64,000 nucleotides of DNA from Ancylomarina euxina (GTDB taxonomy: Bacteria; Bacteroidota; Bacteroidia; Bacteroidales; Marinifilaceae). Position numbers and translations under genes: made by a program. This document shows positions 201 through 23,126 of this stretch, one piece after another; within the stretch, counting starts at the first letter, position 1; each line of letters starts with the position of its first letter. Where the stretch lies: NCBI RefSeq assembly GCF_003863355.1, contig NZ_QQWG01000014.1, forward strand, positions 1-64,000, read 5' to 3'. Below the pieces are notes generated by a model that saw only the letters and a program-made list of their open reading frames with translations, was not told the DNA's origin and did not search any database.

Positions 201-319
201 TCGATTGCCAGGTTTCCATCTGTATTTGTGTTTCCTAAACTGGTGAGAGCTGTTCATAGCACTATTTTTTTGATGGTGTTTTCCTGTATTCTTCGTAAAT
301 TATACAAAAGCTATATCGT
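172..319. other. Intron end and leader of the ParB-like gene
   Basis: The first 30 bases are the domain VI tail of the intron. From about 265 to 300 the sequence resembles the region just upstream of the pseudogene at 16999, sharing a motif of the form TTCTTCGTAAAT (about 289-300; the second copy, near 16968-16979, has ATCTTCGTAAAT), so the duplicated unit extends into the leader. I see no convincing TAnnTTTG promoter here. Confidence 0.5.
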
Positions 320-832
320 ATGACACGTATTAAATCGCCTATAGAAATAACCAAGCTGTTGGATTCTTCTGATCCGATTGAGAGGGAGTTGGGCTATCAG
401 TCCTTTTTGGGGCGTACTCATTGGTTAAAAGGGTATACCTCTGAAGATCTGTGCCGAATGGCTTGTACTCAATTGCAGTTGAATCCGGCACATGTTTTTG
501 TGAATCCTCCTAAAATGTATTCCACCTCCATTTTATGGGCCAGCCAAACCAGATTGGAGGCCGAAAAACTCTCGATGGTTGAGTCTGCTTATCGTTTTAT
601 TCAAAATCATGGTGTAGAATTTCCTCCTATCGTCGTCTGGAATTTCTATCAAGCCAGCCGAATAAAACTGGTGATTCATGACGGACATCACCGTGCCTGG
701 TTCTTCAACAATTTAAAGCATCATGTAAAGGTCGTAGTGCTTGACCCGATTTCAGATTATGCCGATGTTGAGGCCCGATTCCGTTTGGCTTTCCAACTTC
801 GTAAATTAGCGATTAACTTGCCTATATATTAG
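320..832 (+). CDS. ParB/sulfiredoxin-like domain protein
   Basis: A 170-residue protein with the motif VIHDGHHRAWFFNNL (about residues 117-131). The DGHHR core, preceded by FPPIVVWNFYQ, matches the nucleotide-binding fold shared by ParB N-terminal domains and sulfiredoxins (P-I-x-V ... I-x-D-G-H-H-R). It has no helix-turn-helix, so it is not a partition ParB; a stand-alone ParB-like nuclease, kinase or CTP-binding role is possible but unknown. There is no signal peptide. The gene lies between the group II intron and a strong bidirectional terminator (905-937). A full-length broken copy is found at 16999-17511. Function is not assigned beyond the fold. Confidence 0.75.
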   Translation: MTRIKSPIEITKLLDSSDPIERELGYQSFLGRTHWLKGYTSEDLCRMACTQLQLNPAHVFVNPPKMYSTSILWASQTRLEAEKLSMVESAYRFIQNHGVEFPPIVVWNFYQASRIKLVIHDGHHRAWFFNNLKHHVKVVVLDPISDYADVEARFRLAFQLRKLAINLPIY

Positions 833-1814: not shown

Positions 1815-4800
1815 TTAAGTCATCGCCATTTCCTTTTCATTCAACAGGCAGAGATATGCATCTTCCAAATTGGCTTTCGTATTTATGGCGCCGTATCCTG
1901 GATTTTCATCAGACAGACATCGAACACGAATTTGATCCTTATCTCTCATATGGTGAATAATGACATGTTCAGTCTTTAGCTGTTCAAATTCCTCCGTCGA
2001 AACAGTCAATATCCAGACTTTCTCGTTGGCTATACCAGCCATATGAACGGGCTCTCCCAGATACTTAAGTTCTCCTTTTTTCACAACACCAACCCGGTTA
2101 CACGAGCTAGCCACATCTTCGATAATATGGGTTGAGAAGATCACAATTCTATCCTGACTTAATTCGACCAGGAGGTTTCGGAATCGAATTCTTTCACGAG
2201 GATCGAGACCTGCAGTGGGTTCATCAACCACTAATATTCGTGGTAAGTGGAGTAGAATTTGAGCGATACCGATTCTTTGTTTCATACCACCAGAGAATGA
2301 ACCAATCTTATCATCTTTTTGATCGAGCATATGTACGGCACTTAAAACATAATTAATACGCTCGTGCCTTTCCTTATTGTTTTTCAATTTCTTGATGATT
2401 CCCATATAATTGAGGAAATCCCATGCCGTCATATTTTCGTACATCCCAAATTCCTGAGGAAGGTAGCCGATCAATCCTTGCAGTTCTTCACGTTTCTCGC
2501 GAACATCAATCCCATTGATGGTGATTTGCCCATAGCTTTGTTCCAGTATACCACAAATGATTCGCATGAGTGTTGATTTACCTGCTCCATTGGGGCCCAG
2601 CAAACCAAACATGCCGTTTCCTATATTTAAGGATATGCCTTTAACAGCCTTAAACGGCACTTTCTTTTTCCCGATAATGGGTATGAGCAGGACAAAGCGA
2701 TAGAAGTTTTTTCGTAGGCCACTCAAACGCCCTTTTAGTCTATTGATATTGATTTTATCACGGTAAATTTTATCAGAAGAAAGCTTAATAACCAGAGCTA
2801 GATACCAGATGACAGCGATAGGAATAAGCAGCCCAATAAGATCGTATTTCTGATAGGCATAGTAGAGCACAAATAGTGGGAAAAACCAAAAAATAGTTTT
2901 CTGACTCACAGCAATGAGGAATTGAATCCATTTGCTTTTAGCCTCTGTCTTTAGATGATCACGATAAGCCATGATTGGCTTTATGAAACCCAACAACATG
3001 ATTTGGAAAAGGATGGACAGAAGAAGCACCCAGATCTGAATTTGTATGTGGTAAAAGATGAAAAAGACCATAAAAGCAACAAGAGGAATCTGCCAGATTA
3101 AGACGACAAAATCATGAATTGACTGGTAAGCTTGTTTTAATCCCAGACGTTCTCTGATTTTGAGTCCTGATTTCCATTCACGTGTAAATCGATTGTCCCA
3201 ATCGTAAATCTTCACCAGGTTTCTAATCTCAATATGCAAGGCTTCATCAGGAGCAATTAGCTCTTCGTTTGCCTTTCGTAAGCTAGCCGAGATGAAATAA
3301 ATGCAGGCAGGTACAGATAGAAGTAAAACAAGAAAAGTGATGATTTGCCATATTTTACTATCGACTTCGGTATAGATGAAATAAGTTCCTAAAATCCAGA
3401 AGGTAAACTGAATGCTCTTAACCCAAAGTTTCTGACTCCGTAGCCATGTGAGACTGGTTTGTAATCCGGCATAGACCGTAGGTATAAATACCAAAGTTAG
3501 AACCGTACTTAAGCTTAAACCACCAATGACGGTGATGGCAAAAGGCACACCAATTTCAGTAACGTACTCGGCTCGCCCAAGGGCAAGTGGCATTAGTGCA
3601 ATTATGGTTGTGATAGCGGTAATGAGAATAGGTCGGATACGTGCCAAACCAGCCATGATAAGCGCACGAGATTCTCTATAGCCTCGTTTTTGTAGAACAT
3701 TGGAATAATCGATCATGATAATTCCGTTGTTGACCACGATTCCCAAAAGGATGATAAAGCCTGTAAACACATTGGCATTTATAAGCGAAGTCCCGGTTAG
3801 AATAAGAGCGACCAATGAGCCAATTGCAGCCATTGGAATAGAAAACATCATGACAATGGGCATGGTAAAAGATTCGAATACCGATGCTAGAATCATAAAG
3901 ATGAGGATAAAAGCCATCAGAAAGAGAAAGCCAAATTCGCCCAAGGGATTTTCTTCATGTATGATCTCAAGGGCAATGCCTGAAGGTAGATTCATCCGCT
4001 CGACAAGCTCATCGACCTCAACTCGTGCAGCTGTTAGGAGATCCTTCTCGTCATTAACTTCAGCAATGAACTGATATTCAACCTCCAATTGTTTCTCCTG
4101 ATTGGTTCGTTTAATGCTCGATAAACCATCAGTGAAATTGAGTTGACTAATGTTTTGCAATTCAAATTCGGCACCCTGGTTTCCTTTAACAGTGAGTCTT
4201 CTCAGATCTTTTGCATCTCGTGTTTCCTGACTTGATTCTCCTTGTGTTTTTATGATGATATCGTATTCGTCGGTTCCATGTTTGAACGTTACACCGCTTG
4301 AAAATTCTTTTTGAAATGAGTTTAACTCTGATAAAACGGAGTTGACAGGAATATCGTAAATCGCCATAATTTGCTTATCCATCTCAAGAAGCATTTCTGG
4401 TCGCTTACTGGGTATTTTTACTGAAACTCTTTCCATAGATGAGAGCTGCTCCAGATAATATCGAAGATCTTCAGACAGATCTAACATCTTGTCGAAATCT
4501 TGTCCTTTGATAACAAGCTTCTCTTTTTGTGTACCCAAGCCTAGCATTCCCATAAAAGGATTATCACCGCCAAAATCACCACCGCCGCCACCAAATCTGC
4601 GCCCTTTTGCAGGTGCTTCCCAACTGAATGAAGCTCTGGGAATATTATTGAGGCGTTCTAATATATTTTTCTTGATGTCTGGAACGGATCGGTTTAGTAT
4701 ATCACGATAGTCATCGACTAAGGAGATGCTTAGAATGGCTTCTTCCTCGTAAACCTGACTTGTTATATCCTTTTTCTCTTCAAGTGATTCAAGATTTTTT

Positions 4801-6539
4801 TCGACTTCTCTAATTACTAGATCCGTATTGTTGAGAGTGGTTCCCCCGGGAAGTGTTACATAAAGGTTGATGTCCTTTATTTCAGCTTCATTTTTTGACA
4901 TAAAACTCAGGCCTAAACTGATTAAGAGTGTGATGAAAAAGAGCCCAAGTGCCCCCAGAATTGTTTTTCCAGGGAATCGCATGCAAGATTTTAATAGAAC
5001 CAGATAGATTTGAACCAATCGGTTATGAAGCGAGATGCTTTCGAAACTAACGGGACGGCTGTTACCTTTACGTTTTAGAAAAGTATGCGTAATCATAGGA
5101 ATCAAAAGCAGAGCGACGACTAATGAAACCAAAAGCGTTGAGATAATAGAAACGCCAATATGTTTTCCCATCAGTCCAATCATGAAGTTTGACGAAAACA
5201 AAAAGGGCAGAAACACGGTTATGGTCGTTAGTGTGGCTGCAAATATCGAACGCCAAACTTCTTTAGTTCCTTGAATAACGGCCGTATCGGCATCAATTTT
5301 TTTAGCTGCTAGTCGATATATATTTTCGAGGACGACGATACTATTATCGAGCAACATACCAATGGCAAGTGCCATCCCTAAAAGGGTTAAGGTGTTAATA
5401 CTGATGCCATAGGCATAGAAAAAGTTAAATGCCGTATAAACTGAGATGGGAATAGCCAAAGCAATGGCGACAACCAAGCGAATGTTTTTCAAGAAAATCC
5501 ATAGAACAAAGATGGCTAGTAAGCCACCCACCAGTGCCAATTCGATAATTAAATCGATATTGGTTTTCATGGTTTCAGCACTATTGGATTGTACAACAAT
5601 GCTCACATCTTTGTTTTCTAATTCTTGATTAAGTTCCGCAATCTTTTCAATAACCGTATCAGACAAATCAATAATATTCGCCTGGGCATCTCTGGTCAAT
5701 TGCAGCGTAACGGCTTCTTTGCCATTGACGCGACTATATGAGCTTTGTTCTTTTACACCAAAATGAATATCGGCAATATCTTTAAGTTTGATTTTGCCTT
5801 GTTCCTTTACAACCAATTCATGAATATCTGTAATATCAGTAAATTCTGAAACCACATTTACAAAGTGCATTCTATTACTCTCGATAACCTTACCTGCAAA
5901 GCTTCTTTTATTGTCATTTTGACTAAGGGCGGAGCGCACTTGAGATGGACTGATGCCGTAACTTTTGCAGACATCATCGCGTAGTAAGATTTCAATCGAT
6001 TTTTCGCGTCCACCAAAAATGGCAACATTCGCTATACCATCTATATTTTTAATCTGATCCAGTATTTCATTCTGAGTAATTTGTCGAACACGATCGACCC
6101 CTCCGCTACCACGAACCTGAATATTCATGAACATATTGGTGAGTTGTTCTAAATCGAATTTCACAACCTGAACCATAAATTCTTTAGGAAGATCTTTCTT
6201 TGCCTGTTCGACCTTTTCTGCTAGTTTCAGATAAGCATATTTCGTGTTGGTTCCTTGTTCGAAAGAAATCTGAATGTTACCGCTTTGCTGCCCGGCAGTA
6301 GATGTGATTTTTTCTACCCCCTCTAGACTTCCAACGATCCCTTCAAGCGGTATTATGGCTTGATTTTCCATATAGCGAGGATCGACTTCCTGACGCGCGC
6401 TAACCTGTATAAAGAGCATAGGAAGCTGGGCATTAGGAATTAATTCAACCGGAAGTTGCTTGTAGGAGAAGAACCCCAACATGCTAAGTCCGGTGAAGAG
6501 CATTGCGATTAAAACCTTTCGTTTTATAATGAAATTCAT
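1815..6539 (-). CDS. RND efflux pump fused to a C-terminal ABC ATPase
   Basis: 1574 residues in one frame. Residues 1 to about 1025 are a full AcrB-like RND permease (N-terminal MNFIIKRKVLIAMLFTGLSM; TM4 motif GMLLDNSIVVLENIYR; TM10 motif GIVVNNGIIMIDYSN). Residues about 1030-1290 add roughly six further membrane segments. Residues 1295-1574 are an ABC ATPase with every key motif: Walker A GPNGAGKST at 1315-1323 (Lys1321), Q-loop Gln1362, signature FSGGMKQR at 1415-1422, Walker B ILVVDEP at 1435-1441, H-loop His1471. A typical RND protein is about 1030-1050 residues, so the extension is real. It probably couples with the permease at 959-1666 and works with the adaptor and channel upstream in the operon (inference). 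The usual RND TM10 lysine is Asn here. Confidence 0.9.
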   Translation of the reverse strand: MNFIIKRKVLIAMLFTGLSMLGFFSYKQLPVELIPNAQLPMLFIQVSARQEVDPRYMENQAIIPLEGIVGSLEGVEKITSTAGQQSGNIQISFEQGTNTKYAYLKLAEKVEQAKKDLPKEFMVQVVKFDLEQLTNMFMNIQVRGSGGVDRVRQITQNEILDQIKNIDGIANVAIFGGREKSIEILLRDDVCKSYGISPSQVRSALSQNDNKRSFAGKVIESNRMHFVNVVSEFTDITDIHELVVKEQGKIKLKDIADIHFGVKEQSSYSRVNGKEAVTLQLTRDAQANIIDLSDTVIEKIAELNQELENKDVSIVVQSNSAETMKTNIDLIIELALVGGLLAIFVLWIFLKNIRLVVAIALAIPISVYTAFNFFYAYGISINTLTLLGMALAIGMLLDNSIVVLENIYRLAAKKIDADTAVIQGTKEVWRSIFAATLTTITVFLPFLFSSNFMIGLMGKHIGVSIISTLLVSLVVALLLIPMITHTFLKRKGNSRPVSFESISLHNRLVQIYLVLLKSCMRFPGKTILGALGLFFITLLISLGLSFMSKNEAEIKDINLYVTLPGGTTLNNTDLVIREVEKNLESLEEKKDITSQVYEEEAILSISLVDDYRDILNRSVPDIKKNILERLNNIPRASFSWEAPAKGRRFGGGGGDFGGDNPFMGMLGLGTQKEKLVIKGQDFDKMLDLSEDLRYYLEQLSSMERVSVKIPSKRPEMLLEMDKQIMAIYDIPVNSVLSELNSFQKEFSSGVTFKHGTDEYDIIIKTQGESSQETRDAKDLRRLTVKGNQGAEFELQNISQLNFTDGLSSIKRTNQEKQLEVEYQFIAEVNDEKDLLTAARVEVDELVERMNLPSGIALEIIHEENPLGEFGFLFLMAFILIFMILASVFESFTMPIVMMFSIPMAAIGSLVALILTGTSLINANVFTGFIILLGIVVNNGIIMIDYSNVLQKRGYRESRALIMAGLARIRPILITAITTIIALMPLALGRAEYVTEIGVPFAITVIGGLSLSTVLTLVFIPTVYAGLQTSLTWLRSQKLWVKSIQFTFWILGTYFIYTEVDSKIWQIITFLVLLLSVPACIYFISASLRKANEELIAPDEALHIEIRNLVKIYDWDNRFTREWKSGLKIRERLGLKQAYQSIHDFVVLIWQIPLVAFMVFFIFYHIQIQIWVLLLSILFQIMLLGFIKPIMAYRDHLKTEAKSKWIQFLIAVSQKTIFWFFPLFVLYYAYQKYDLIGLLIPIAVIWYLALVIKLSSDKIYRDKININRLKGRLSGLRKNFYRFVLLIPIIGKKKVPFKAVKGISLNIGNGMFGLLGPNGAGKSTLMRIICGILEQSYGQITINGIDVREKREELQGLIGYLPQEFGMYENMTAWDFLNYMGIIKKLKNNKERHERINYVLSAVHMLDQKDDKIGSFSGGMKQRIGIAQILLHLPRILVVDEPTAGLDPRERIRFRNLLVELSQDRIVIFSTHIIEDVASSCNRVGVVKKGELKYLGEPVHMAGIANEKVWILTVSTEEFEQLKTEHVIIHHMRDKDQIRVRCLSDENPGYGAINTKANLEDAYLCLLNEKEMAMT

Positions 6540-6586: not shown

Positions 6587-9500
6587 TTATTCTGCGTTTA
6601 CTGATCGTGAAAAATAGCTTTGCATTCTATCGAATACGTAGTAAACACAAGGAATAACCACCAAAGTCAGTAATGTTGAGGTAATCAAACCTGCAATAAC
6701 GGCTATGGCCATTGGAGCTCGTAAGGCTGCACTCTCTCCAAAACCAATGGTAAGGGGTAGTAGGGCCAGAATAGTTGTGATACTTGTCATGATTATAGGT
6801 CGAATCCTGTTTTCACCCGCCATGACAATTGAATTGATTAAGGTTTCTCCTTGTTGCTTAAACTGGTTGATAGCATCTACCAAAATAATGGAGTCGTTGA
6901 CCGCTATCCCTCCCAGCATAATAATACCAATATAAGCCATAATATTCATAGGAATACCCAAAAGGAAGAAGGCCCAAACGGCACCAACTCCAGCCAATGG
7001 AATAGTTAAGAGAATGGTGAAAGGGTGTATTAATGATTCGAACTGTGACGCCATAACCATATAGACCAGAATGATAGAAAGCATCAGTGCAAAACTTAAA
7101 TTTGAGAGTGCTTCTTGTCGTTTTTGTTCTTCGCCAATCAGGTTCACCTGATAGCCTTGTGGTAATTCAATTCCTTTGAGTTTGCTGTTTATTTTATTAA
7201 TAACCTGATCAAATGCTTCGGCTCCTTGAATATCGGCACTAATCTTTCCTATTCGAGTCTGGTTGCGTCTTAACATTTGCTTAGGCGATGAGGATTTCTC
7301 GATATGAGCCAGCTCGTAAAGAGGAATCTCGGCATCGCCACTTTTAATACCAATGGTATTTAATTCGGATAGGCTCTGTTCTGGTAGTTGAATATTAATA
7401 TCACTCATTTCACCCCCTTTTTCGAATTTTCCAGCGTTTTTACCCATTAGGATATCTTGAAGCTGATTGGTAATGGCCTGGGTACTTAAATTAAAAATTC
7501 CAGCTTTATAACGATCTATCACAACATCAACTTCAGGAGCTCCTTCTTCGATATTGGTTTTGATATTTGTTAAATCGGGTACCTGACTTAAACGATCCTT
7601 AACCTCATTTGAAAGTCGTTCCAGGACTTCCATATCTTTTCCTTTTACCTCAACTTCAATTGGGGCATTCTCTGTTCCAATGGTCGATTGCAAGGCTGTT
7701 TCGTCTCGAACAATCGTAATTTCAGCATTCGGAATGCCAGCGATTAATGTGCTGACATGATTCAGGATACTTTCGGATTGAGCGAGATATTCACTTTTAA
7801 GTCGAATTTTAATATTGGCTGTATTCTCATTCTGAAATACAGTTTTGTCTGTTGACGAGCTGCTTCCCGGGCCTATTTGGCTATAAATTGTTTCGAATTG
7901 CTCTCCCATAGATTGGTTAAGCATGGATTCTATAGCGATCACGGTTTGGCTGGTTCTTTCAAGTTGTGTACCTTCCTTTAATTCGATATTAAGGCTGAAC
8001 TCGCCAATACCAGCTTTAGGCAGGTATTCATTGCCTACATAAGGTAGGATGAGGCCGGTAATAACTAAAAGGATGGTTGCGCCACCAATAACTAAAACTC
8101 GTTTACTCAGTAATTTTCTAAGAAGGACGCCATACCAGCCGATTTTTACTGATTTGAATTTGATGTTTTTCCCTTTTCCTTTGTAAGCGTAATTGAATAG
8201 CATTGGAATCATCAGAATAGCTACAAAAAGAGAGGCTATTAGGGAAAATGCGACCGTCCATGCTTGATCTTTAAACAAGGCTCCAGAAGCTCCGTGCATA
8301 TATACAATCGGAAGAAAAACGACTATGGTGGTTAGTGTTGAAGCCACAATTGCCCCGCCAACTTCTGAGGTTCCTTCAATGGCAGCATCCTTTACGGATA
8401 GACCCAATTCCATTTTCCGGAAGATATTTTCAATAACGACAATAGCATTGTCAACCAACATTCCTGCCCCAAGTGCCAGCCCTCCCAAAGTCATAATGTT
8501 TAGACTGAGTCCGTTGAAGTACATGAGGTTGAAAGTGGCAATGATGGAAACGGGGATTGCAAAACTGACAATAGCCGTTACTTTTATTCGACGTAAGAAA
8601 ACGAAGAGAACCAAAATGGCAATCAGTACACCAAGCAAAGCGGTTTCTTCAACTTCGTCTATTGCTTTTTGAATAAACTGCCCCTGGTTCTGAACCGTGA
8701 TAAACTGATAACCAGGTAAGGCTTTTTTGATGGAAACCATCGTCTTTTCAAAATCTTCTACCGCTTGTACGGTATTCGATCCGGTTTCTTTATAAATGGA
8801 TAAACCAATACAACGGACACCATTAATTCGAACAATGTTCTGAGCTTTTTTAGCAACAAAACTCACTTTTGCGACATCTTTTAGAAGGATGGGTACCTTT
8901 CCTTTTATCAGCGCTTGTTTTTCCGTATTTGATGGAGGTGAATCTGTTTTGGTTCCTACAATTACGTTTTCAATTTCATTGATGTTTCGGATTAAACCAG
9001 CCCCTTTTATTATATACTTGGTTCCCATTTCCACAATGCTTCCACCCGAAAGATTTTGGTTGAGACTTTGTATTTTCTGTACAATCTGATCGATCGTTAT
9101 ATTGTGAGCATCGAGAAGGTATTGATTGGTTTCTATGCGAACTTCCTTCTCTTGCGCACCTGTTAATTCAACCTCTGCAATTCCTTCTAATCGAATCAGT
9201 TCGTTGCGAATATAATTTTCACCCACTTTTCGAAGTTCATTCATATCCTGTATGTCAGGATGCAGCATACCGACTATAAGAATTGGAGATGCATTGGGAT
9301 CGTGCTGAGTGATCGTAAATTCATCAATATCGCTATTCTGGCTATATGAAGAAAGTGTTTTTTGTAAATCCAGGAAAGCTTCGTCCATATCACTTCCCCA
9401 TGTGTACTCTACTGTAAGTCTTGCCGATCCGACCATACAAACGGATGAAACCTGACTCACACCTTTCTGACGAATAGACTGTGCTTCGATACCCTCAATG

Positions 9501-9691
9501 AATTGTTTTTCGATCTCTTCGGGTGGACGTTCACCTGCCTTTATTTCCACAAATATGCGTGGCGCATTCATCTCTGGAAACAGATCAACGTTTAACTTGC
9601 CAAGCGAGACGTATCCCAAGAGCAATATCGCCATTATAATCATGGATACCGTCACTGGATAGTTGACCGAAAATTGAGTTATTTTCTTCAT
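6587..9691 (-). CDS. RND efflux transporter permease (AcrB family)
   Basis: 1034 residues, normal RND length, with two halves of TM1 + periplasmic loop + TM2-6. The N-terminus MKKITQFSVNYPVTVSMIIM and TM4 motif GMLVDNAIVVIENIFRKME are typical; TM10 reads GGIAVNDSIILVDAIN. The proton-relay Asp of TM4 is kept once (DN rather than DD) and the TM10 lysine of AcrB is Asn. It pumps substrates from the inner membrane or periplasm into an adaptor/TolC channel using the proton (or sodium) gradient. It lies 47 bases before the RND-ABC fusion gene and 70 bases after the adaptor gene. With one adaptor for two RND genes, a mixed trimer as in MdtBC is plausible but unproven. Confidence 0.9.
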   Translation of the reverse strand: MKKITQFSVNYPVTVSMIIMAILLLGYVSLGKLNVDLFPEMNAPRIFVEIKAGERPPEEIEKQFIEGIEAQSIRQKGVSQVSSVCMVGSARLTVEYTWGSDMDEAFLDLQKTLSSYSQNSDIDEFTITQHDPNASPILIVGMLHPDIQDMNELRKVGENYIRNELIRLEGIAEVELTGAQEKEVRIETNQYLLDAHNITIDQIVQKIQSLNQNLSGGSIVEMGTKYIIKGAGLIRNINEIENVIVGTKTDSPPSNTEKQALIKGKVPILLKDVAKVSFVAKKAQNIVRINGVRCIGLSIYKETGSNTVQAVEDFEKTMVSIKKALPGYQFITVQNQGQFIQKAIDEVEETALLGVLIAILVLFVFLRRIKVTAIVSFAIPVSIIATFNLMYFNGLSLNIMTLGGLALGAGMLVDNAIVVIENIFRKMELGLSVKDAAIEGTSEVGGAIVASTLTTIVVFLPIVYMHGASGALFKDQAWTVAFSLIASLFVAILMIPMLFNYAYKGKGKNIKFKSVKIGWYGVLLRKLLSKRVLVIGGATILLVITGLILPYVGNEYLPKAGIGEFSLNIELKEGTQLERTSQTVIAIESMLNQSMGEQFETIYSQIGPGSSSSTDKTVFQNENTANIKIRLKSEYLAQSESILNHVSTLIAGIPNAEITIVRDETALQSTIGTENAPIEVEVKGKDMEVLERLSNEVKDRLSQVPDLTNIKTNIEEGAPEVDVVIDRYKAGIFNLSTQAITNQLQDILMGKNAGKFEKGGEMSDINIQLPEQSLSELNTIGIKSGDAEIPLYELAHIEKSSSPKQMLRRNQTRIGKISADIQGAEAFDQVINKINSKLKGIELPQGYQVNLIGEEQKRQEALSNLSFALMLSIILVYMVMASQFESLIHPFTILLTIPLAGVGAVWAFFLLGIPMNIMAYIGIIMLGGIAVNDSIILVDAINQFKQQGETLINSIVMAGENRIRPIIMTSITTILALLPLTIGFGESAALRAPMAIAVIAGLITSTLLTLVVIPCVYYVFDRMQSYFSRSVNAE

Positions 9692-9761: not shown

Positions 9762-10811
9762 CTATTTTACAATTTTAATCTTCGATCTGTTTCTTAAGGT
9801 TTCAAAACCTTTAATAACTAAACGATCCTTTTCTTCCAAACCAGAAACAATCTGAACCTCTTTAGGATTCTCTAATCCAAACTGAACAACTCTTTCCTCG
9901 GCCAAACCTTTGTTTACCACAAATACGATATTGCCATTCTGTTTGCTTAAGATGATATCCTTAGGAATAACAATTGAACTGTCGGCTTTCGCAACGATAA
10001 TCTCACCTTTTGCAAACATGCCTGGACGCAATAAAAGCTTGGAATTATTGATGTTGATAACCGCTTTGAACGATCTGGTTTCTGAGTTTATTGCAGGTGA
10101 AATTTGGGCTAATACCCCACTTAGGGTATCACCCGGAATGGTATAGTTCACGATCTTAACTTTCTGACCCGTTTTAACCGAAGCGATATTTTTTTCAGCA
10201 AGATTGATTTCCATAAGAAGCTTGCTGTAATCCATAATACCGAATAGAGGTGAAGCGGCTTCAACTCTGGTCTTTTCGGTGTAGTGGTTTAGACTCGTAA
10301 TTGTGCCTGAAAAAGGCGCTTTGATTTTTAATTTAGCTAAACGATATAGGGCATCTTCGTACGCGTATTTTGCATTTATCAAGTCGATTTCAGCTTTTTT
10401 TACATCAGATAATGTAACGCCACCTTTTTCATATAAAGATTGTTGCTTATCGAACCCTTGTTGAGAGATTTGCAAACTTAATTCCTGAGATTTGATTTTG
10501 ATATTGTTCTCGTATTCCTTGTCCTCAAATGCAATGATCTCAGTTCCTTCTTTTACAAAATCACCCAAAGCAAATTTTCGTCCTGTTACAGGGTTAATTT
10601 GTAAGTGATATTTTCCTGCAACTTCACTTTTTACATCTACCGTTTTTACAGGATTTACAGTACCCGTTGTGCTGATGAATTTTTCGATACTTTTACTTGC
10701 AACTTCTTTTACAGAAACCTGTACAGCTATGTCTTTATTGAGATCAGTTGCCCTATCGTTACAGGCTGAAAAGATGGCAACACTTAAAATTAAGAAGGCG
10801 ATTCGTTTCAT
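9762..10811 (-). CDS. Periplasmic adaptor lipoprotein of RND efflux system (AcrA/HlyD family)
   Basis: The start chosen gives MKRIAFLILSVAIFSAC, a lipoprotein signal with the lipidated Cys at residue 17; an earlier in-frame ATG at 10838 would place nine extra residues ahead of it. The mature part shows the lipoyl half-motifs (VKTVDVKSEVAGKYHLQINP and IKAPFSGTITSLN) around a short coiled-coil hairpin with a YEKGGVTLSDVKKAEIDL segment, then a beta-barrel domain (GQKVKIVNYTIPGDTLSG) and a membrane-proximal domain. It should bridge the two RND pumps to the TolC-like channel encoded just upstream. It is the only adaptor in the operon. Confidence 0.88.
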   Translation of the reverse strand: MKRIAFLILSVAIFSACNDRATDLNKDIAVQVSVKEVASKSIEKFISTTGTVNPVKTVDVKSEVAGKYHLQINPVTGRKFALGDFVKEGTEIIAFEDKEYENNIKIKSQELSLQISQQGFDKQQSLYEKGGVTLSDVKKAEIDLINAKYAYEDALYRLAKLKIKAPFSGTITSLNHYTEKTRVEAASPLFGIMDYSKLLMEINLAEKNIASVKTGQKVKIVNYTIPGDTLSGVLAQISPAINSETRSFKAVININNSKLLLRPGMFAKGEIIVAKADSSIVIPKDIILSKQNGNIVFVVNKGLAEERVVQFGLENPKEVQIVSGLEEKDRLVIKGFETLRNRSKIKIVK

Positions 10812-10852
10812 TGTTATGGCGTTTGTATGGGTTATCATGATTGAATTTGTGA

Positions 10853-12355
10853 TTAGTTTTTGATCAAATTTTCCTGTAACTCCTGAGGAACAAAAGATCT
10901 GTTGTATTCGAAATCCCAGAGTGACTGGATTTTCAAATTAAGCAGTTCAAGTTTGTAGTTGATTAGGGAGTTTGCGAGGTTCATTTTCTTTTCAGAAAGC
11001 TGATTTTGGAAGCGTTCCAAATCGATACTCGTTAAGTCCCCATTTCTATAGCGCTCCAAATTGATGTTGTAGGTCAGTTCAGCGTTCTTTTGATTTTGTT
11101 CAGCAATTTCGATTTGCTGTACCAGATTTTTCATATTTCGATAGATCTTTCGAATATTGATCGTAATATCGTTTTTTAAACTATTCATATCTATTTCGCG
11201 ACTTTCGATCTCAAGTTCGGCAGCTCTAATTCGAGCTTTTCTCTCTCCCCAATCGAAAATTGGGATTGAGAAGGTCACTCCAACTCTAGGACTTTTGGTC
11301 GGTCTGTCATAAACTTTCCGCCATTCTTCATTATTTCCCATCAGGCCAACCGAAAGATTGACGTTCCCTTTAAAAGCATTTTGTGCTGTGGTTTCAATCA
11401 GATCAAAACGGGCATTATTTAAATCTATTTGTCGCTGAGTCAATTCCAACCTTTGGCTTAAACCGTTTTGAATAGCTTTTTCCAGATCTACAATTACAGG
11501 CATATATTTAATATCTGTACTCACCGCAACATCTTCGTATAGAGAGATTCCTAAAAGGAGTTTAAACTCATCTTTTGCATTTTCAAGTTCTACCCGATTG
11601 TTATCTAAGCTAGATTTACTAGTCGCATAATTCAATTCGGCCTGGTAAAGTTCTTCCTTAGCCGATAAACCGCCTTCAACCTTACTTACAATAATCTCCT
11701 TACTTACTTTTTGATTTTCAAATTCCTCCTCAGCAATTTTCAAAGCCATTTGTTTTTGATATATCGTGTAAAATGCTTGGTTCACTTGTCTTTCCATATT
11801 CAGCATTTGTATGGAGTAGGAAAGAGTTGCATTCTCCAAATTCAACTCATTGCGAGTCAAATCCATCTTGGTTTTATTGAATGTGAATAAAGGTTGATCG
11901 TATTGAATGTAAAGTGAGTTGTTGTATCCGGCATAATTCGAACTACTTGCTTCAGAAAAATTATCCTGATAGCCAAATTCATTTCTTAAGGATAAACGAC
12001 CATCGGATAATTTGATGGGTTGTGAAACCGTAAATGTTCCTTTAGAACCCTTATTCTCGGAGGTATTCCAATTCGAAAAATATTCGTTGTAAGATTCTGT
12101 CTTGTCATAGGTTATAGGAGTAATGTCAAGAGTGAAACGTGATCGTAATGAAGCGAGTTGAGCATTTAATCGCTCCTTATTTTGCTCCATATTTATTTTC
12201 GACTTTTTAATATCGGGACTGTTCGAAAAGGCTATTAAAAGAGCTTCATCAAGTGTAATTTCTTTTTGAGCTTGAGAGCTTAGGGAGCTAAATAGGATTG
12301 CTCCTGCACATATTAAAATCTTCATTAATACAAGCTGTAGTTTCGTTCTGATCAT
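10853..12355 (-). CDS. TolC-family outer membrane efflux channel
   Basis: 500 residues with a signal peptide (a cleaner start is the internal Met at 12325, giving MKILICAGAILFSSLSSQAQ). The mature N-terminus EITLDEALLIAFSNSPDIKK and a second repeat with NVNLSVGLMGNN ... PRVGVTFSIPIFDWGERKAR are hallmarks of the outer-membrane efflux protein family: two repeats of long helices with beta segments. It forms the trimeric outer-membrane duct for the RND pumps. It follows the permease/M1-like gene by 22 bases and precedes the adaptor gene. Confidence 0.88.
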   Translation of the reverse strand: MIRTKLQLVLMKILICAGAILFSSLSSQAQKEITLDEALLIAFSNSPDIKKSKINMEQNKERLNAQLASLRSRFTLDITPITYDKTESYNEYFSNWNTSENKGSKGTFTVSQPIKLSDGRLSLRNEFGYQDNFSEASSSNYAGYNNSLYIQYDQPLFTFNKTKMDLTRNELNLENATLSYSIQMLNMERQVNQAFYTIYQKQMALKIAEEEFENQKVSKEIIVSKVEGGLSAKEELYQAELNYATSKSSLDNNRVELENAKDEFKLLLGISLYEDVAVSTDIKYMPVIVDLEKAIQNGLSQRLELTQRQIDLNNARFDLIETTAQNAFKGNVNLSVGLMGNNEEWRKVYDRPTKSPRVGVTFSIPIFDWGERKARIRAAELEIESREIDMNSLKNDITINIRKIYRNMKNLVQQIEIAEQNQKNAELTYNINLERYRNGDLTSIDLERFQNQLSEKKMNLANSLINYKLELLNLKIQSLWDFEYNRSFVPQELQENLIKN

Positions 12356-12377: not shown

Positions 12378-15300
12378 TTACTTGTTTTCAATCCATTTAA
12401 TTGCATCTGCAAAGAGATATGCACCTTTGGACTTGTTGTTTAATTCAACTTTTGAAGTTTCTGGTGTAATGAAATAAGTTCCCAGGTAGTTCCAGCCATT
12501 TTCCAATTCCTGATCACTTTTATTAATCTCTTCGAATCCTGATTCATGATAGATTTTAAAATTATAATCCGTCTTTTTTCGTTGTCTTCTTCGGCTATAT
12601 CCATTTACTTTCTCTATATGACAGAATACATCGTAATAGGCTCCTTTTTTTAGTTCAGCTGTCCAAGTTGCTGAACGATCACCTTGTCCTGATTTTGTAA
12701 AGAAGGCCGAACGAACATATTTTCCGAAGAAGCCCGAACGAAGAACATTTTTCCATTCATTTGGCGGATTCCATGTACGCATACGAGAATACTCGTGAGT
12801 TGAAATACGGTTTTCATCTATCCATTGTTTCAAATAACTTTTATTTGATACCTGAACATATTCGAAACCTTTATCTTCATTGTCAACAACAAATTCGTTA
12901 TCGGCAAGAATGCCTTCAAATGCCTCACAATCCTTTACATCATTGAAAAATTTTGTTTTTTTTGTTTCCGAAAATGTACTGAACTCGTAAACCAGGCTAT
13001 TAGGTAGATTTTCAGATATATGAGTCGAAATATTCATTCTACTTGGTTGAGAAGGAAAAACAAAACCGACTTCAAGAGCTGAATTTGCAGGTATGAAAAT
13101 TGATTTAGAAAAGGCTGGTTTTGAACCTTCTTGATTCCGGCGATTTCGTCTTTCATTTTGATCATTCAATTCAACACTAACTGTGACTATTCCATCAGAC
13201 GATTCTGGGTTCGAAATTTTGTATCGAATTTGATATTTGATGTGATCTCCATCTTTTACTTTGTAGGTTTGTAGATCTTTGATCAGAAAACCAGGTAGTT
13301 TATTGGTTGTATACCAGTTTTTCACATCCGCTTCAATCGATTGACCATAGTTGAGTTTTATCAAGCTATCAAAGTCCGTAAAACTAAATTTTTGATGTTT
13401 ATTCTTTTCGATATAAGATTCGATTAAGGTGTTAAATTTCTCCTCTCCATAGCGAGCTTTGAGTAATGAAAAAAGATGAATGCCTTTGGCTTGGAGGATA
13501 TCATTCAGATAGATTTGTTCTTCATTTTTAGTTGAAGCCTTCAAACCGGTTTTAGTAATATCCTGAAGAGAAGCTTTCTTCAACTCCAGATTAATACGTT
13601 CTTCTTTGCTGATGCCATCGAATCGCCAGCGAGAATAGGATTGAGATGTGACATTCTTTTCTTTTAAATAAACTCCCAAAGCCATATTTAATGCTGGATA
13701 ATCCGTCGAGCTTAATTGTGTTGAATAGCCATAATAGTTTGGAAATGGTGAGTAGGTGTTTCTATCTATATTATCGAACTCATACCATTCTGTTGCAGGA
13801 GGCATTAAATTCCCACGAACAAATCGTTTGAATATTCGTGATTGGAGTTCTTCATCGGAGACTTCTTCATTATCACGCTTCATTCGTGTTTCAAATCGTT
13901 TTTTTCTCTTTTTAAAATCTGTTTCCTCCATTAAAACACCTTTCTCAGGATAAAAAATAATCTCAGGTTGGACTGCATCACTACTGATCGACCAAATGTG
14001 TTTATCGAGTGCAAATTGAATGGGGACTTCGGCTAAAGCGAATCGCTTAAATGGATATTCTAAATCCAACTTCGTTTCATATTCGTTTTTCAACTCCCGT
14101 ATTAATGAGGGTAAACTATCTTGTATTGAATCAAAATGTTGCAGGAAAAACTGATTCCCTTTAATCGAATAAATGGAATATTCTATAGAATCAACACTTG
14201 TACTATATTGTTGATAATCTCCAATCAACAAACTGATTTTTGGAAGTGCTGATTCAGGTTGGAATTCAAAAACGCTATCTGAAAGCGTTGTTAGCTTTCC
14301 TTGTGAAATAGGGATTAGATTGTTTTTTGTATGAACTTTTAGTTTGAAGTTTGTGAAATCAGGAGAATGTAAAACCGGATTGAGAGAGGCAAAGCCTACT
14401 CCTGAAATGGGGTACCACAGTGCTTCATTCGTTAAACAAACAAAGTTTTTCTGTAGATACGAAAATCTCTTCCTTACTTTGAACATGACTGCACTGAAAT
14501 TATCTTCTACAAGCTTAGGATTAAGATCGAGAAAATGGGTTCTTTCATCAATTGAACCTTCGTAACCAATAACCAATTCGGTATATTTTGCTTTATTCAA
14601 TTTATTGGAAAGCGCGATTTTGAGCAAGTGTGTCTCTCTTTTAAATTCTAGCTTTTTATTGTTTTCGGTAATAGCAGTAATTTTCAAAGAAGGATTTAGG
14701 CTAAAGAGTAGCGTATCTAATTCTGAATTTGATGAATTATAAAGTTTGAGTTTACTAACTGCTGATATTTTTTCTCCTAAGTGATTTAAATCGATATGAC
14801 AATCTCTAATTTCGGCTTTTGGATATGAGAGGTATTTGTTATTTAAGCTTATCATTTTATGCCTAAATGCGTTATTATCAACTTTGATATCGATGTATTT
14901 CCAAATTAATCCACCACCGCAAAGAAATGCCAGTAAAGCCAAATAAATTGGTAACGAAACCAAGCGTTTGGATTGGGGTAAGCGATTCAATTTTGAAATG
15001 GTAAAGAAGATGAAGCCTATTCCTAAAAAGAAATAAATTCCTCGGTGTATGATGACTTCAGTAAGATTTCCAAAGCCACCAATTGTAGAATTCATCATTG
15101 GCACTTGATAGGCGATATAATCGAATATGTGATAGAACTTTGTATTTAAATAAAAAATAGTGAGTGCAATATAACCTAGAAGGATAATAAATGTGATGGC
15201 TTGATTTTTTAATATTGTCATAAAAAAGAAAGCCAAACCAAGTATAAAAACCAAGGTTGGTATTGAAATCAAAAGGGGATAATATAAAAGTTGCAGCACA

Positions 15301-15725
15301 CCTTGAGAAGACTCATTACTTAAAAATGAAAAGCCAATCCCCATCAATAAAATAAAAATATTGAGAATGATAAAGACGGTGATTATTCCAAAAGATTTTC
15401 CAAGAATATACTCACTATTGGTCATCGATCTTGCATAGATAACCTCAACTGAGTCGTTTTTACTATCCTGTTTTAAAAACTCGGAGGCTAAAAATATAGC
15501 TACAATTGCTTGTCCTAAATTGAGGATAATTAGGTTGGCATAAGGGATGGCAGCTGGTAAGGCTCTGAAAATCCATGGTGCATCACTTCCTTCTACAAAA
15601 GCAGCAATATTAAAAATACCTATCGATAAGATGGATAAACCCGCAAAGATTCTGAAAAACCAGGATCTTAGTAAAGTTCGTGTTTCAAATTTGGCGACTG
15701 TTCGTATTGAGTGAATCGATATCAT
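12378..15725 (-). CDS. ABC permease with degenerate M1-peptidase-like and golvesin-like domains
   Basis: 1115 residues. The first ~280 carry about seven membrane segments in an ABC-2 permease layout. Residues about 300-830 resemble the M1 aminopeptidase fold (beta-rich N-terminal part with LVIGYEGSI; later LSLLKARYGEEKFNTLIESYIE), but no HExxH zinc motif exists anywhere. The stretch FVRGNLMPPATEWYEF occupies the place where HELAHQWFGNLVxP would be expected. The last ~140 residues (FFTKSGQGDRSATWTAELKK ... GWNYLGTYFI ... AYLFADAIKWI) resemble the golvesin C-terminal-like carbohydrate/polymer-binding domain. It is 11 bases after the ATPase gene, its probable partner. The extracytoplasmic part is likely a binding rather than a hydrolytic module. 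Confidence 0.8.
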   Translation of the reverse strand: MISIHSIRTVAKFETRTLLRSWFFRIFAGLSILSIGIFNIAAFVEGSDAPWIFRALPAAIPYANLIILNLGQAIVAIFLASEFLKQDSKNDSVEVIYARSMTNSEYILGKSFGIITVFIILNIFILLMGIGFSFLSNESSQGVLQLLYYPLLISIPTLVFILGLAFFFMTILKNQAITFIILLGYIALTIFYLNTKFYHIFDYIAYQVPMMNSTIGGFGNLTEVIIHRGIYFFLGIGFIFFTISKLNRLPQSKRLVSLPIYLALLAFLCGGGLIWKYIDIKVDNNAFRHKMISLNNKYLSYPKAEIRDCHIDLNHLGEKISAVSKLKLYNSSNSELDTLLFSLNPSLKITAITENNKKLEFKRETHLLKIALSNKLNKAKYTELVIGYEGSIDERTHFLDLNPKLVEDNFSAVMFKVRKRFSYLQKNFVCLTNEALWYPISGVGFASLNPVLHSPDFTNFKLKVHTKNNLIPISQGKLTTLSDSVFEFQPESALPKISLLIGDYQQYSTSVDSIEYSIYSIKGNQFFLQHFDSIQDSLPSLIRELKNEYETKLDLEYPFKRFALAEVPIQFALDKHIWSISSDAVQPEIIFYPEKGVLMEETDFKKRKKRFETRMKRDNEEVSDEELQSRIFKRFVRGNLMPPATEWYEFDNIDRNTYSPFPNYYGYSTQLSSTDYPALNMALGVYLKEKNVTSQSYSRWRFDGISKEERINLELKKASLQDITKTGLKASTKNEEQIYLNDILQAKGIHLFSLLKARYGEEKFNTLIESYIEKNKHQKFSFTDFDSLIKLNYGQSIEADVKNWYTTNKLPGFLIKDLQTYKVKDGDHIKYQIRYKISNPESSDGIVTVSVELNDQNERRNRRNQEGSKPAFSKSIFIPANSALEVGFVFPSQPSRMNISTHISENLPNSLVYEFSTFSETKKTKFFNDVKDCEAFEGILADNEFVVDNEDKGFEYVQVSNKSYLKQWIDENRISTHEYSRMRTWNPPNEWKNVLRSGFFGKYVRSAFFTKSGQGDRSATWTAELKKGAYYDVFCHIEKVNGYSRRRQRKKTDYNFKIYHESGFEEINKSDQELENGWNYLGTYFITPETSKVELNNKSKGAYLFADAIKWIENK

Positions 15726-15736
15726 ATATTACGTTA

Positions 15737-16621
15737 CTAAATGGTTTCTGAAGCTTTTTCCATGAAATAAACATAGGCATGTTCAAGGTTTGGCTCAATT
15801 TCGATGGCATTGCTTAATTGGCTGCCATCACCTATGAGCTGAACATCCCATCCTTCCTGAGTTGGAATAGTTGAAACAACAGCGTATTTATCTTTGATTA
15901 AATCATATTCGTAGCCAGATGTGCTGACTTGCCAAACGTGACCTTTCGCCTTTTCTATTAAAGCTTCGGGTGTCCCTTTAAAAGCCAATTCTCCATTATT
16001 TAATAGGGCTAGGTTATTACAAACACTGGATATATCACCTACAATATGAGTTGATAAAATGATGGAAACATCTTGCTGGCTGATTTCTGATAAAATGTTT
16101 CGAAATCGAATTCTTTCCTCAGGATCAAGCCCCGTTGTTGGTTCGTCGACGATAATTATTTTAGGATCGCCTATCAATGTTTGAGCAATTCCTAATCGAC
16201 GTTTCATACCTCCGGATAGCTTGTTTGCATCTCGTTCGCGAACATCGAATAGACCGACTTTCTCTAGCCATTCATCAACCTTATTTTTTCTCATTTGTTT
16301 ACTTCTGATACCTGCTAAAGAGGCTGCATAATCAAGGAATTCCCATGTTTTTAATTTTGAAAAGAAACGAAAATCCTGAGGTAAATAGCCTAGAATACTT
16401 CTTATTTCTTTGCGGTCTCTGTGAAGATCGAATGAATTGAAGCTTGCAGTTCCTGTCGAGGGTTCCATTAGGGTAACCAATATCCTCATAAGGCTTGATT
16501 TTCCTGCGCCATTGGGACCTAATAAACCAAACATCCCATTACCAATTTCCAGATTTATATTATTGAGAGCTTTCTTTCCGTTAGGATAAATTTTGCTGAG
16601 GTCATTGATATTAATCTGCAT
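15737..16621 (-). CDS. ABC transporter ATP-binding protein
   Basis: 294 residues, a complete stand-alone ATPase: Walker A GPNGAGKSS (35-43), Q-loop in GYLPQDF (78-84), signature LSGGMKRR (135-142), Walker B IIIVDEP (155-161), H-loop His192. It is a clear paralogue of the ATPase fused to the RND pump at 1815-6539; GNGMFGLLGPNGAGKS is identical in both. It is the first gene of the operon and should drive the permease/M1-like protein that follows at 15725. Drug, lipid or peptide export is possible; nothing in the sequence fixes the substrate. Confidence 0.9.
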   Translation of the reverse strand: MQININDLSKIYPNGKKALNNINLEIGNGMFGLLGPNGAGKSSLMRILVTLMEPSTGTASFNSFDLHRDRKEIRSILGYLPQDFRFFSKLKTWEFLDYAASLAGIRSKQMRKNKVDEWLEKVGLFDVRERDANKLSGGMKRRLGIAQTLIGDPKIIIVDEPTTGLDPEERIRFRNILSEISQQDVSIILSTHIVGDISSVCNNLALLNNGELAFKGTPEALIEKAKGHVWQVSTSGYEYDLIKDKYAVVSTIPTQEGWDVQLIGDGSQLSNAIEIEPNLEHAYVYFMEKASETI

Positions 16622-17585: not shown

Positions 17586-19697
17586 TTACTCAACCAGTAT
17601 ACTTTGCATAATAACGATTGGTTCTCCTTTTTCAGAAATTCCCTCCACCGTTAATTCATACTCTCCTTTTACATCACTAGTGGTAAACTCTAAATCAAAA
17701 TGCTTGTTTTTTGTTAGATTGATATTGGGTTCCCAGAGCAGATCTGTTCGGAAATCAGCATGATTTTTTTGTTGATACTCACTTGTATTTATATATTCAA
17801 CTCCGTGTGTAAACAATGGTAAATAGTAGCGTTCAGTATTTTTTGGTAATTCTGACAATTGACAATCCTGTTTTTTTGAGATCACATTTATGATTCCATA
17901 TAAGTGTGATGATCCATAATAATATTCATAAGGAACGACTTCTATTTTGTCAATCTCTTTTGAGTTTTTATTCAGAATTTTGGATGCATCAGACAAGATG
18001 AGTCCATCGAACATGAGTAGAGGATTTTGTTCAAATACACGCATGATATCTGGACTATAAACATATATATGAGGTTTCTTTTTTTTGTAATTAATCTTAA
18101 CTGTAGTTATGAATTCATGGAAATATTCTTCTAATGAATCCAACTGGATGTAGTCATCGATTTTAATAAAGTGCTCAGATTTTCCATAAAAATTCGCTTG
18201 TCCTCTATATAGGCAGGTATCTTTTGTTTCCCTATATGTTTCTTGTCTGTAAATGTTGCGAATTCTGAAATTTTCAAATTGATCCTTAATAAAGTCTAAT
18301 TGTTTTTCTTTTAATTCTTGCTTTTTCCATGGTATTGGGGCAAAACCTTCGGAATTGAATTTGTCTTTTAATTTGATAGCAAGATCTAGATCATTTCTAC
18401 CTTTAACCTGAATTGATATATCATGAAGGCCTTTTTTTAATGGAAGATTGAAGTAAAATTTACCTTGATCATTTGTGCAAAATGGACTGATGTCAGCATA
18501 ACCTCCAATTTTTGAGAGAAAGACATTTTCATTAGTAAATGCTTGCTTTGTTTTTCTCATTTTCACCGTACCTTCAATAACATATGCTTCTTCTTCTGGA
18601 TATCGATTAGCGTTTACTGAGTAGATATTTGAATTTTTCAACCAAACTGTTTCAATCCCCTTTTCAGCTATCCAACTTTGTTTCCCGAATTTTTTTATGT
18701 GATTAAAATAGGGAAGCATATTTGCTCCAAAATCTGAATATAAATTCATATAATCGATAATATTTATCGATGAGATCTGGGGCTCCTTGAGTTTTATACT
18801 CGCTAATAAGAATAAGCTATCGTCTTGATGAGATAGTTCTTCTAAACGAAGATTAATCTTTATTTTTTTTCTCTGCTTCGTTGTTATTCTTGGCTTTTCG
18901 ATAAAACGACCGCGATGTGAATTTGCTAGATGTATAACAGCAGTTTTAATAAGCTGTCCTTTATTATTTCTTATAGCAATGTTGTAATTAGGTGATTTCA
19001 AATCTTTTATTTCCAGAAGAGTTTCCCAGTTATTTTGATTGAACTGAATTTTTTGTTCTAGGGTTTTGCCTTTTCTAGATAAAAGTTGGAAAATATAAGA
19101 GCTGTCAATTCCGATGTTATTGTTTGTTATAGATATTTTTAGGATTCGATTAAGATCTTCAATTTTTGTATGAATTGAAATATCATCTTGTTTAATTTCA
19201 GATTTTACAAGAGTTAAGTTGTTATTTTTTAGATCTCGAAATGTACTTTTTAGGTTCGTAGTATTTGAATAATCACTATCACTTATATTCTGATTATTGA
19301 AAATAAAGAGAGGACTGACGTTAATGAAATCAGGCGAGCTTGTTTTCATCCAATGTGTGTAAGCATTAATGGCGTAATTTCCTGTAGGGAGTTGTGATGA
19401 AATAACAAACCCTCCTTTTCCCATACCATGTTCTAGGATAATATCTGTTTGGGCTACCGGAAATCCATTCTCCCCAATCAACTCAACATAAGCAACCTTG
19501 CTAATCTTCGATAGTTTTAGATCATTTGAATTTAAGCAGTAAAGTTTAAAATGAATAGCTTCTCCGGCTAGGCAGATGTTTTTTTGTAAATGAACATGGA
19601 TTTGTTCAGCAGGTAGTTCTTGAGAAAAACCATTTAGAATTGAAGTCATACCTAATATTAGAACAAGGCTTATGTACTTGAATATTTTATTTTTCAT
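17586..19697 (-). CDS. Secreted MG2-like protein with a C-terminal plug-like segment
   Basis: 703 residues with a signal peptide (about 1-25, ending in NGFSQ). Residues about 30-130 (EQIHVHLQKNICLAGEAIHF ... GNYAINAYTHWM) match the macroglobulin MG2-like beta-sandwich found in many Bacteroidota envelope proteins. Near residues 565-612 a segment with DGLILSDASKIL ... YGIINVISKK looks like the end of a TonB-receptor plug domain. Beta-sandwich regions link them. There are no barrel strands, so it is probably a periplasmic or surface partner of the TonB-dependent receptor encoded 5 bases upstream. It is the last gene of a four-gene operon; the exact role is unknown. Confidence 0.65.
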   Translation of the reverse strand: MKNKIFKYISLVLILGMTSILNGFSQELPAEQIHVHLQKNICLAGEAIHFKLYCLNSNDLKLSKISKVAYVELIGENGFPVAQTDIILEHGMGKGGFVISSQLPTGNYAINAYTHWMKTSSPDFINVSPLFIFNNQNISDSDYSNTTNLKSTFRDLKNNNLTLVKSEIKQDDISIHTKIEDLNRILKISITNNNIGIDSSYIFQLLSRKGKTLEQKIQFNQNNWETLLEIKDLKSPNYNIAIRNNKGQLIKTAVIHLANSHRGRFIEKPRITTKQRKKIKINLRLEELSHQDDSLFLLASIKLKEPQISSINIIDYMNLYSDFGANMLPYFNHIKKFGKQSWIAEKGIETVWLKNSNIYSVNANRYPEEEAYVIEGTVKMRKTKQAFTNENVFLSKIGGYADISPFCTNDQGKFYFNLPLKKGLHDISIQVKGRNDLDLAIKLKDKFNSEGFAPIPWKKQELKEKQLDFIKDQFENFRIRNIYRQETYRETKDTCLYRGQANFYGKSEHFIKIDDYIQLDSLEEYFHEFITTVKINYKKKKPHIYVYSPDIMRVFEQNPLLMFDGLILSDASKILNKNSKEIDKIEVVPYEYYYGSSHLYGIINVISKKQDCQLSELPKNTERYYLPLFTHGVEYINTSEYQQKNHADFRTDLLWEPNINLTKNKHFDLEFTTSDVKGEYELTVEGISEKGEPIVIMQSILVE

Positions 19698-19702
19698 TGT
19701 AT

Positions 19703-22423: not shown

Positions 22424-22428
22424 AGCTT

Positions 22429-23115: not shown

Positions 23116-23126
23116 GTTTTAATAGA

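Follow-up and report, generated by a model that had tools for sequence, protein, structure and literature searches.

In teaching, RND and ABC exporters are kept apart as two classes that draw on different sources of energy. How, then, can both be encoded by one gene in Ancylomarina euxina, and what could the resulting protein do? The gene in question (P0001, 1574 residues, positions 1815–6539) lies in a stretch of 64,000 nucleotides (contig NZ_QQWG01000014.1, positions 1 to 64,000, from a genome of 4.4 Mb in 77 contigs), which we call the window; all coordinates refer to it, and the gene, its parts and its six operon neighbours lie on the minus strand. Its open reading frame (ORF) stays open for 1574 codons without an internal stop, with Pfam matches to ACR_tran at residues 2–1024 (2.4e-167) and to ABC_tran at residues 1300–1443 (2.1e-29). 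The former (PF00873) is a full-length match, covering positions 3–1018 of the 1021 of the model with 559 bits against a cut-off of 28. A first-pass annotation made from the sequence alone had described a single uninterrupted frame with a full pump at about residues 1–1025 followed by an ABC ATPase, and the ORF, the Pfam matches and the existence of full-length homologues bear this out. The architecture of this RND-ABC fusion is nearly certain, while mechanism and substrate of the exporter are what we infer.

The fusion is real and not an assembly error, as it occurs in isolates and in metagenome bins. That two adjacent genes were merged by mistake in assembly or annotation could be suspected where the gene lies in pieces, as in a few relatives (L141, G279 and G297), possibly by frameshifts or contig breaks, but many bins as well as isolates of Marinifilum, Labilibaculum and Ancylomarina have the same fusion and linker, so that we regard the probability of an artefact as practically negligible. 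In the relatives with the divided gene (L141; G279:C430 and C19; G297:C172) the split into two pieces lies near the linker. Four RND frames of 1452–1515 residues with additional C-terminal sequence were also seen (G001:C9, G001:C1, G015:C42 and G030:C304), which are perhaps RND-outer membrane channel fusions, a known type. The first-pass annotation had likewise excluded a frameshift artefact, with the reservation that a lack of homologues in related genomes would point to an assembly error. Such a lack is not seen, the fusion being found in 20 of 38 genomes including that of the window, namely in three of five of the genus, 14 of 17 from the rest of the family and three of 16 from the rest of the order; among the 20 it is cut by a contig end in G032 and G035 and reads only to query residue 1432 in G019. 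Two genus members (G002 and G004) gave no match beyond ordinary RND genes in this search, and in these two, out of four genus members besides the window's own, the fusion is therefore dispensable or has been lost.

In larger samples searched at E ≤ 1e-150, each count including the genome that served as centre, the fusion was found in 25 of 198 genomes from the order when fragments are counted too, in 4 of 198 of a phylum-wide sample and in 41 of 82 from the phylum of a ‘KSB1’ bin. A scan of the collection confirmed 115 related stretches, mostly metagenome bins whose taxon labels we took as given in their titles. The best 80 of the 115 were kept, and their titles name Marinifilum, Labilibaculum, Bacteroidales, Cytophagales, KSB1, Calditrichaeota, Chlorobiota, Krumholzibacteriia and Melioribacteraceae, with Ancylomarina sp. 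DW003 being the closest named relative (88%) among these 80. Identities of the fusion homologues, which are labelled Bacteroidota, KSB1, Calditrichaeota, Chlorobiota or Krumholzibacteriia, range from about 32 to 97%.

The fusion possesses the complete motif set of an ABC ATPase (PF00005), that is Walker A, Q-loop, signature, Walker B and H-loop, at the positions which the first-pass annotation had given. An alignment of 88 full-length proteins including the window's own, to which all counts out of 88 refer, shows Lys1321 of Walker A, Q1362 of the Q-loop, the catalytic E1440 of Walker B and D1446 of the D-loop in 88/88, D1439 of Walker B in 87/88, the S/G/G of the signature (1416–1420) in 87/88 and His1471 of the H-loop in 87/88 with one gap. 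All of these motifs are located in residues 1296–1574 (1818–2654), comprising most of the ATPase domain and a C-terminal tail. Between them and the pump module (residues 1–1024; 3468–6539) AlphaFold2 predicts six long helices (1038–1058, 1062–1091, 1141–1164, 1168–1199, 1203–1232 and 1235–1260), in keeping with the roughly six extra membrane helices that had been noted before. The annotation had regarded them as a linker that leads to a complete ABC ATPase; its ordered membrane segments stand, but it is not only a linker, as only the first two helices (residues 1038–1091; 3267–3428) simply follow the pump, whereas the other four interrupt the ATPase domain.

This interruption became apparent from the motif HIEIRNLVKIY (residues 1102–1112; 3204–3236), which resembles the first strand of an ABC ATPase although Walker A follows only about 200 residues later. 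A strand profile was made from residues 2–12 of 26 stand-alone ATPases encoded by the same operon (see below) and slid over residues 1025–1296 of the 88 fusions. Its top-scoring place was residue 1102 in 88/88, and two of 4400 shuffled segments scored as high. For residues 850–1574 we obtained an AlphaFold2 model from 63 of the 69 sequences left after a 90% identity filter (L012, L019, L025, L073, L080 and L089 were dropped from the alignment), with a mean predicted local distance difference test (pLDDT) of 80.5, a predicted template modelling score (pTM) of 0.64 and a pLDDT of 89 for the block of the strand. The order in the model is strand 1103–1112, an amphipathic helix, four long helices (1141–1260), a short helix and strand 1296–1306. 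In nearly all rows the structural alignments to solved ATPases begin at model residues 249–254, which corresponds to about the chain start of the latter, and the smaller solved ATPases are covered almost completely: FtsE (8hd0; model 253..645, Z 25.8) is aligned in 212 of its 218 residues, LptB (6b89) in 222 of 226 and 4yer_B in 264 of 277. Sequence (88/88), AlphaFold2 model and alignment to solved ATPases agree on the placement of strand 1, and by these predictions the nucleotide-binding domain (NBD) is interrupted after its first strand and before its second by a membrane bundle of about 180 residues. The domain is not contiguous in the sense that strand 1 is directly followed by strand 2; the strands lie at 1103–1112 and 1296–1306 with about 180 residues between them. 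As strand 1 precedes the insertion (residues 1113–1295; 2655–3203), a plain tether before a complete NBD is ruled out.

The strand ends with Tyr1112, which like Lys1110 is invariant (63/63) and stands where we would expect the aromatic residue of the A-loop. By sequence pattern the distance from this tyrosine to Walker A is 130–246 residues in 119 proteins, with a median of 200. The shortest insertion, 130 residues in L173 (G381, a frame of 1536 residues), appears by eye to have two membrane helices instead of four, and in general an even number of inserted helices would hold both parts of the ATPase in the cytoplasm. No Pfam match at E ≤ 1 has its best stretch in residues 1025–1295, so the linker does not correspond to a known domain by this measure; the fold search dealt mainly with model residues 250–720, and the insertion may still have a known fold. 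A profile of residues 1025–1300, for which 51 of 60 candidate rows were used, recovered from the 198 genomes of the Bacteroidota sample (at most 12 candidates scored per genome) the same four fusions and one spurious hit of 52 residues with stops, and from the KSB1-label phylum 41 of 82 genomes, exactly those that the whole-protein search had given. Since the profile matches only fusions, the insertion was, the spurious hit aside, not seen outside RND-ABC genes or their pieces in these 198 and 82 genomes.

What such a protein might work with can be read from its surroundings. The fusion is part of a row of seven genes, all on the minus strand, in the order stand-alone ABC ATPase (294 residues; 15737–16621), permease/pseudo-M1 protein (1115 residues; 12378–15725), TolC-family outer membrane channel (10853–12355; PF02321 above cut-off), periplasmic adaptor of the membrane fusion protein (MFP) type (9762–10838; TIGR01730 above cut-off), partner RND pump (1034 residues; 6587–9691; PF00873), RND-ABC fusion and half-permease (235 residues; 959–1666). 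As the gaps between them are only 11–148 bases, we infer that the seven genes are co-transcribed; a scan for promoter-like (57 vs 51.3 expected) and terminator-like sites (17 vs 12.7) was not used. The first-pass annotation had proposed the permease at 959–1666 as partner of the fusion, being silent on the partner RND pump, the adaptor, TolC and the second ABC module.

We compared the gene order of 93 loci (L104 could not be anchored) and included in each count only loci whose flanks were long enough. The partner RND was found in 78/82, the adaptor in 68/72, TolC in 63/68, the permease/M1 gene in 60/63 and the ATPase in 48/58 of the loci with room, and the half-permease lies directly downstream in 82/86, making it a natural partner as had been suggested. 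In nine of the ten loci without the ATPase it could not be seen because the permease/M1 gene starts at most 303 bases from, or runs off, the locus end; in the tenth (L135) the ATPase is on the opposite strand. Most of the distant forms, with 33–36% identity, also keep much of the operon. Thus, as in MdtABC-type systems, two adjacent RND paralogues share one adaptor (78/82 and 68/72). Among solved sequences E. coli MdtB (9lyq) scores best with the pump module, with CmeB close behind, and MdtB is also the best-scoring solved RND sequence for the partner. However, the pair does not descend from the MdtB/MdtC duplication. A tree was made with AcrB, MdtB, MdtC and the nine other RND genes of the window's genome; some of its rows have long branches, and some, including MdtB and MdtC, an unusual composition. 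In this tree the 10 rows for the RND part of the fusion and the 7 rows for the partner RND form sister clades with 97/96 support apart from all of these, whereas MdtB and MdtC are joined to AcrB and one pump of the genome with 100/100 support. Because both clades contain the distant forms L136 and L142, the duplication appears from the tree to predate the split of these from the Bacteroidota forms.

The half-permease is of type V (ABC-2) by its predicted fold. The AlphaFold2 model, for which 70 of 87 candidate sequences including the window's own were used, reached a pLDDT of 89 and a pTM of 0.86, and the fold search returned NosY first with a Z of 16.3 over 215 residues. The best 50 rows (Z 14.1–16.3), which include ABCA1, ABCA3, ABCA4, ABCG1 and ABCG2, align 204–229 of the 235 residues, and the fold is thus like that of NosY, ABCA and ABCG proteins. 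PF12698 was matched at E ≤ 0.01 by 20 of the 70 half-permeases, the window's own reaching it only below the cut-off. Seven alignment columns do not vary at all, including E86, F89 and R102, which lie near the short helix 84–88, which we take to be the usual NBD-docking site in the type V class; P92, Y94, R95 and K97 are conserved at ≥90%.

From these parts we propose, with about even chances of being right, a conserved two-energy envelope exporter, that is a tripartite system with two RND proteins in which the companion permease is served by the ATPase of the RND-ABC subunit. The active form of MdtBC is B2C according to PMC7015380 and PMC12802153. By analogy, the two RND paralogues would form a mixed trimer, in which two RND-ABC protomers and one plain RND would provide exactly two NBDs, the number that an ABC transporter needs, and these would sit on two copies of the companion permease (959–1666) paired as a dimer. 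The ABC module might then spend ATP to bring an amphiphilic substrate from the inner leaflet or the cytoplasm to the periplasmic face, beside the entrance of the RND trimer, which would push it through adaptor and TolC using the proton gradient. ATP-driven loading and proton-driven expulsion would thus share one complex. The inserted helices would hold the NBD beside the pump and may relay its ATP-driven closure to the membrane, and the other ATPase and the permease/M1 protein would make up an ABC module of their own or supply the missing halves in a heterodimer. We favour ATP-driven loading because two copies of the fusion would give two NBDs, as a dimeric type V permease needs. That the substrate is an amphiphile is at most hinted at by the predicted permease fold, which is common to lipid and drug exporters. 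The kinship of the NBD to ABCA exporters was dropped as a main argument for a lipid, because the ABCA scores sum two domains.

Several observations weigh against this proposal. The complete AcrB relay D407/D408/K940/R971 is not present: the position of AcrB K940 is Asn in 88/88 (Asn937-Asn938 is invariant) and that of D408 is Asn in 79/88, and we leave the fusion in PF00873 instead of filing it as AcrB-type. With two ATPases and two permease-like proteins in the operon several pairings are possible, and an RND-ABC homotrimer with three NBDs may be an alternative stoichiometry. The hint to a lipid-like substrate is weak, as ABCA exporters head the solved relatives only by the summed scores of two domains. 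As to the loci, the 2.9 kb available upstream of the fusion in L093 contain no RND gene, the upstream partners are all missing beside the fusion in L143, and the upstream genes seen in L135 and L140 lie on the opposite strand. No half-permease was scored downstream in L036, L071, L093 and L134; in L071 a same-strand half-permease ORF overlaps the end of the fusion, and in L134 neither permease/M1 nor half-permease was recognised.

The altered relay bears on how the fusion is powered. Asp398 (AcrB D407, the proton-carrying Asp in transmembrane helix 4) and Arg969 (AcrB R971, transmembrane helix 11) are both found in 88/88, and because these two are invariant proton coupling is probably retained. 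The DN/NN pattern is not peculiar to the fusion, since two of the nine other RND genes of the genome share it, and a loss of proton coupling as a fusion-specific feature is therefore unsupported. The doubly powered exporter and the pump as scaffold for an ABC transporter, both put forward in the first-pass annotation, are still conjectural, with the Asp of helix 4 being kept but Asn taking the place of K940. The missing K940 would also fit a direct coupling, in which the fused NBD drives or gates the RND cycle through the inserted helices and the 235-residue permease is secondary. It would agree with the NBD being covalently joined through membrane helices, four of which emerge between strand 1, with its A-loop-like Tyr at the end, and strand 2. 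Nevertheless, we consider such a coupling quite improbable, as the type V half-permease that directly follows in 82/86 loci has need of an NBD itself, Q-loop and signature, which are used with permeases, are conserved in 87–88/88, and the invariant Asp and Arg speak for retained proton coupling.

The main rival to the exporter with two fused NBDs on a permease homodimer comes from the second ABC pair. Here the NBD of the fusion would pair with the stand-alone ATPase (15737–16621), and the 235-residue permease with the N-terminal region of the permease/M1 protein, giving one asymmetric ABC transporter tethered to the RND trimer via one of its two NBDs. Both NBDs are about 40% identical and fall into one tree group (20 rows, 97/97), most loci keep both ABC pairs with the RND genes, and the NBD count would work with any RND stoichiometry. 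The permease/M1 protein consists of an N-terminal ABC-2 permease-like region, a degenerate M1-like region (below cut-off) and a Golvesin_C domain (above cut-off), and PF12679 was found at E ≤ 0.01 in the N-terminal 300 residues of 14 of 23 such proteins (of 56 candidates, the window's own included). However, the ABC-2 models fail to reach E 0.01 in the window's own protein. Another ATPase of the genome (L169) falls, with a long branch, inside the NBD group, and for this reason an operon-specific duplication of the ATPase is no more than possible. Moreover, the permease/M1 and ATPase genes are adjacent and could make a transporter of their own, and in L135 and L140 they lie on the strand opposite to the fusion. 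Taken together, we rate the heterodimer as unlikely.

The permease/M1 protein has also to be considered for a further function. The HExxH zinc motif was found in none of the M1-like regions of 59 homologues, which are thus not M1 aminopeptidases, and a periplasmic binding rather than a peptidase role is probable from the sequences. That the protein is nevertheless kept in 60/63 loci, suggesting binding rather than peptidase activity, would suit a mechanotransmission as proposed for MacB and FtsEX, where the ATP-driven closure opens the adaptor/TolC duct or controls the periplasmic M1/Golvesin_C protein and no substrate passes the ABC module. The NBDs of FtsE and MacB are among the best fold matches, but many NBD families fit equally well. 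The half-permease resembles the substrate-moving NosY, ABCA and ABCG and not the type VII proteins MacB and FtsX, and its 235 residues leave no room for a large periplasmic domain. We therefore hold mechanotransmission to be very improbable. MacB, a type VII ABC protein, differs from the fusion also in having its own permease and no RND partner.

Regarding the flanks of the operon, HAM1-like and RecO-like genes are located near the ATPase gene in 8 of 16 flanks, all eight within the family, and in 7 of 16 accompanied by an RsgA-like gene. As these neighbours recur in genomes of the family, they suggest a chromosomal, vertically inherited locus there. An upstream pair of sigma factors, guessed from gene sizes, proved wrong, the genes being the HAM1-like and RecO-like ones. 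Positions 17586–24257 encode a TonB-dependent receptor-like protein with DUF4249 and other same-strand neighbours; the receptor and a neighbour recur beside the operon in 4 of 16 flanks, all from close relatives.

All recognised parts come from known families; what seems to be new is that RND and ABC modules share a single chain and that the NBD contains a membrane bundle. A pathway in which ATP and proton motive force meet is also known in ArsAB and in SecA/SecDF, with SecDF being RND-like, yet there the ATPase is a separate, non-ABC subunit. Large insertions in ABC ATPase domains are found in UvrA and SMC/Rad50, where they are soluble and located elsewhere in the fold, and to our knowledge no membrane bundle between ABC strands 1 and 2 has been known. 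The 235-residue permease is like those of NosDFY and ABCA/ABCG in fold, and ABCA, LptB and NosF are among the PDB relatives of the NBD, which by single-domain scores is closer to the Thermotoga ATPases 4yer and 1vpl (about 117 bits vs 88.5 for the better ABCA3 domain); the nearest NCBIfam models, GldA and DrrA, stay far below cut-off. Unlike in NosDFY and ABCA/ABCG, where the NBDs are separate or on their own permease, the NBD is carried here by an RND pump and interrupted by membrane helices. With MdtABC and MuxABC the system shares two adjacent RND paralogues with one adaptor and the origin of the pair in an old duplication, which the title of PMC7015380 likewise states for MdtBC. In contrast to MdtABC, the duplication is a separate one, one subunit bears an ABC ATPase, and the operon includes TolC and two ABC modules. 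An ABC protein working with adaptor and TolC is listed as MacAB-TolC in a table of PMC8277102. Neither an RND-ABC fusion nor a membrane-interrupted NBD was found described in the open-licence literature as far as its texts were accessible, which is weak evidence as most subscription journals and preprints lie outside of it.

Beyond the two-energy exporter, these features could define a new transporter class, an ATP- and proton-powered envelope-spanning complex built on an RND trimer with the interrupted ABC ATPase on its subunit, in which ATP binding pulls directly on the membrane helices beside the pump. We put this forward only tentatively and rather doubt it. If true, it would be an ABC motor wired to the membrane unlike the known permease-docked NBDs. 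The interrupted NBD in any case poses the question how an ABC domain folds and works with four membrane helices after its first strand. As a natural, old and widely kept fusion the protein means that bacteria have built one machine from both exporter classes, and it allows the division of labour between ATP and the proton gradient in one export path to be tested by point mutation. In the operon, moreover, a search for the substances exported by marine Bacteroidota and KSB1-type bacteria has a named target.

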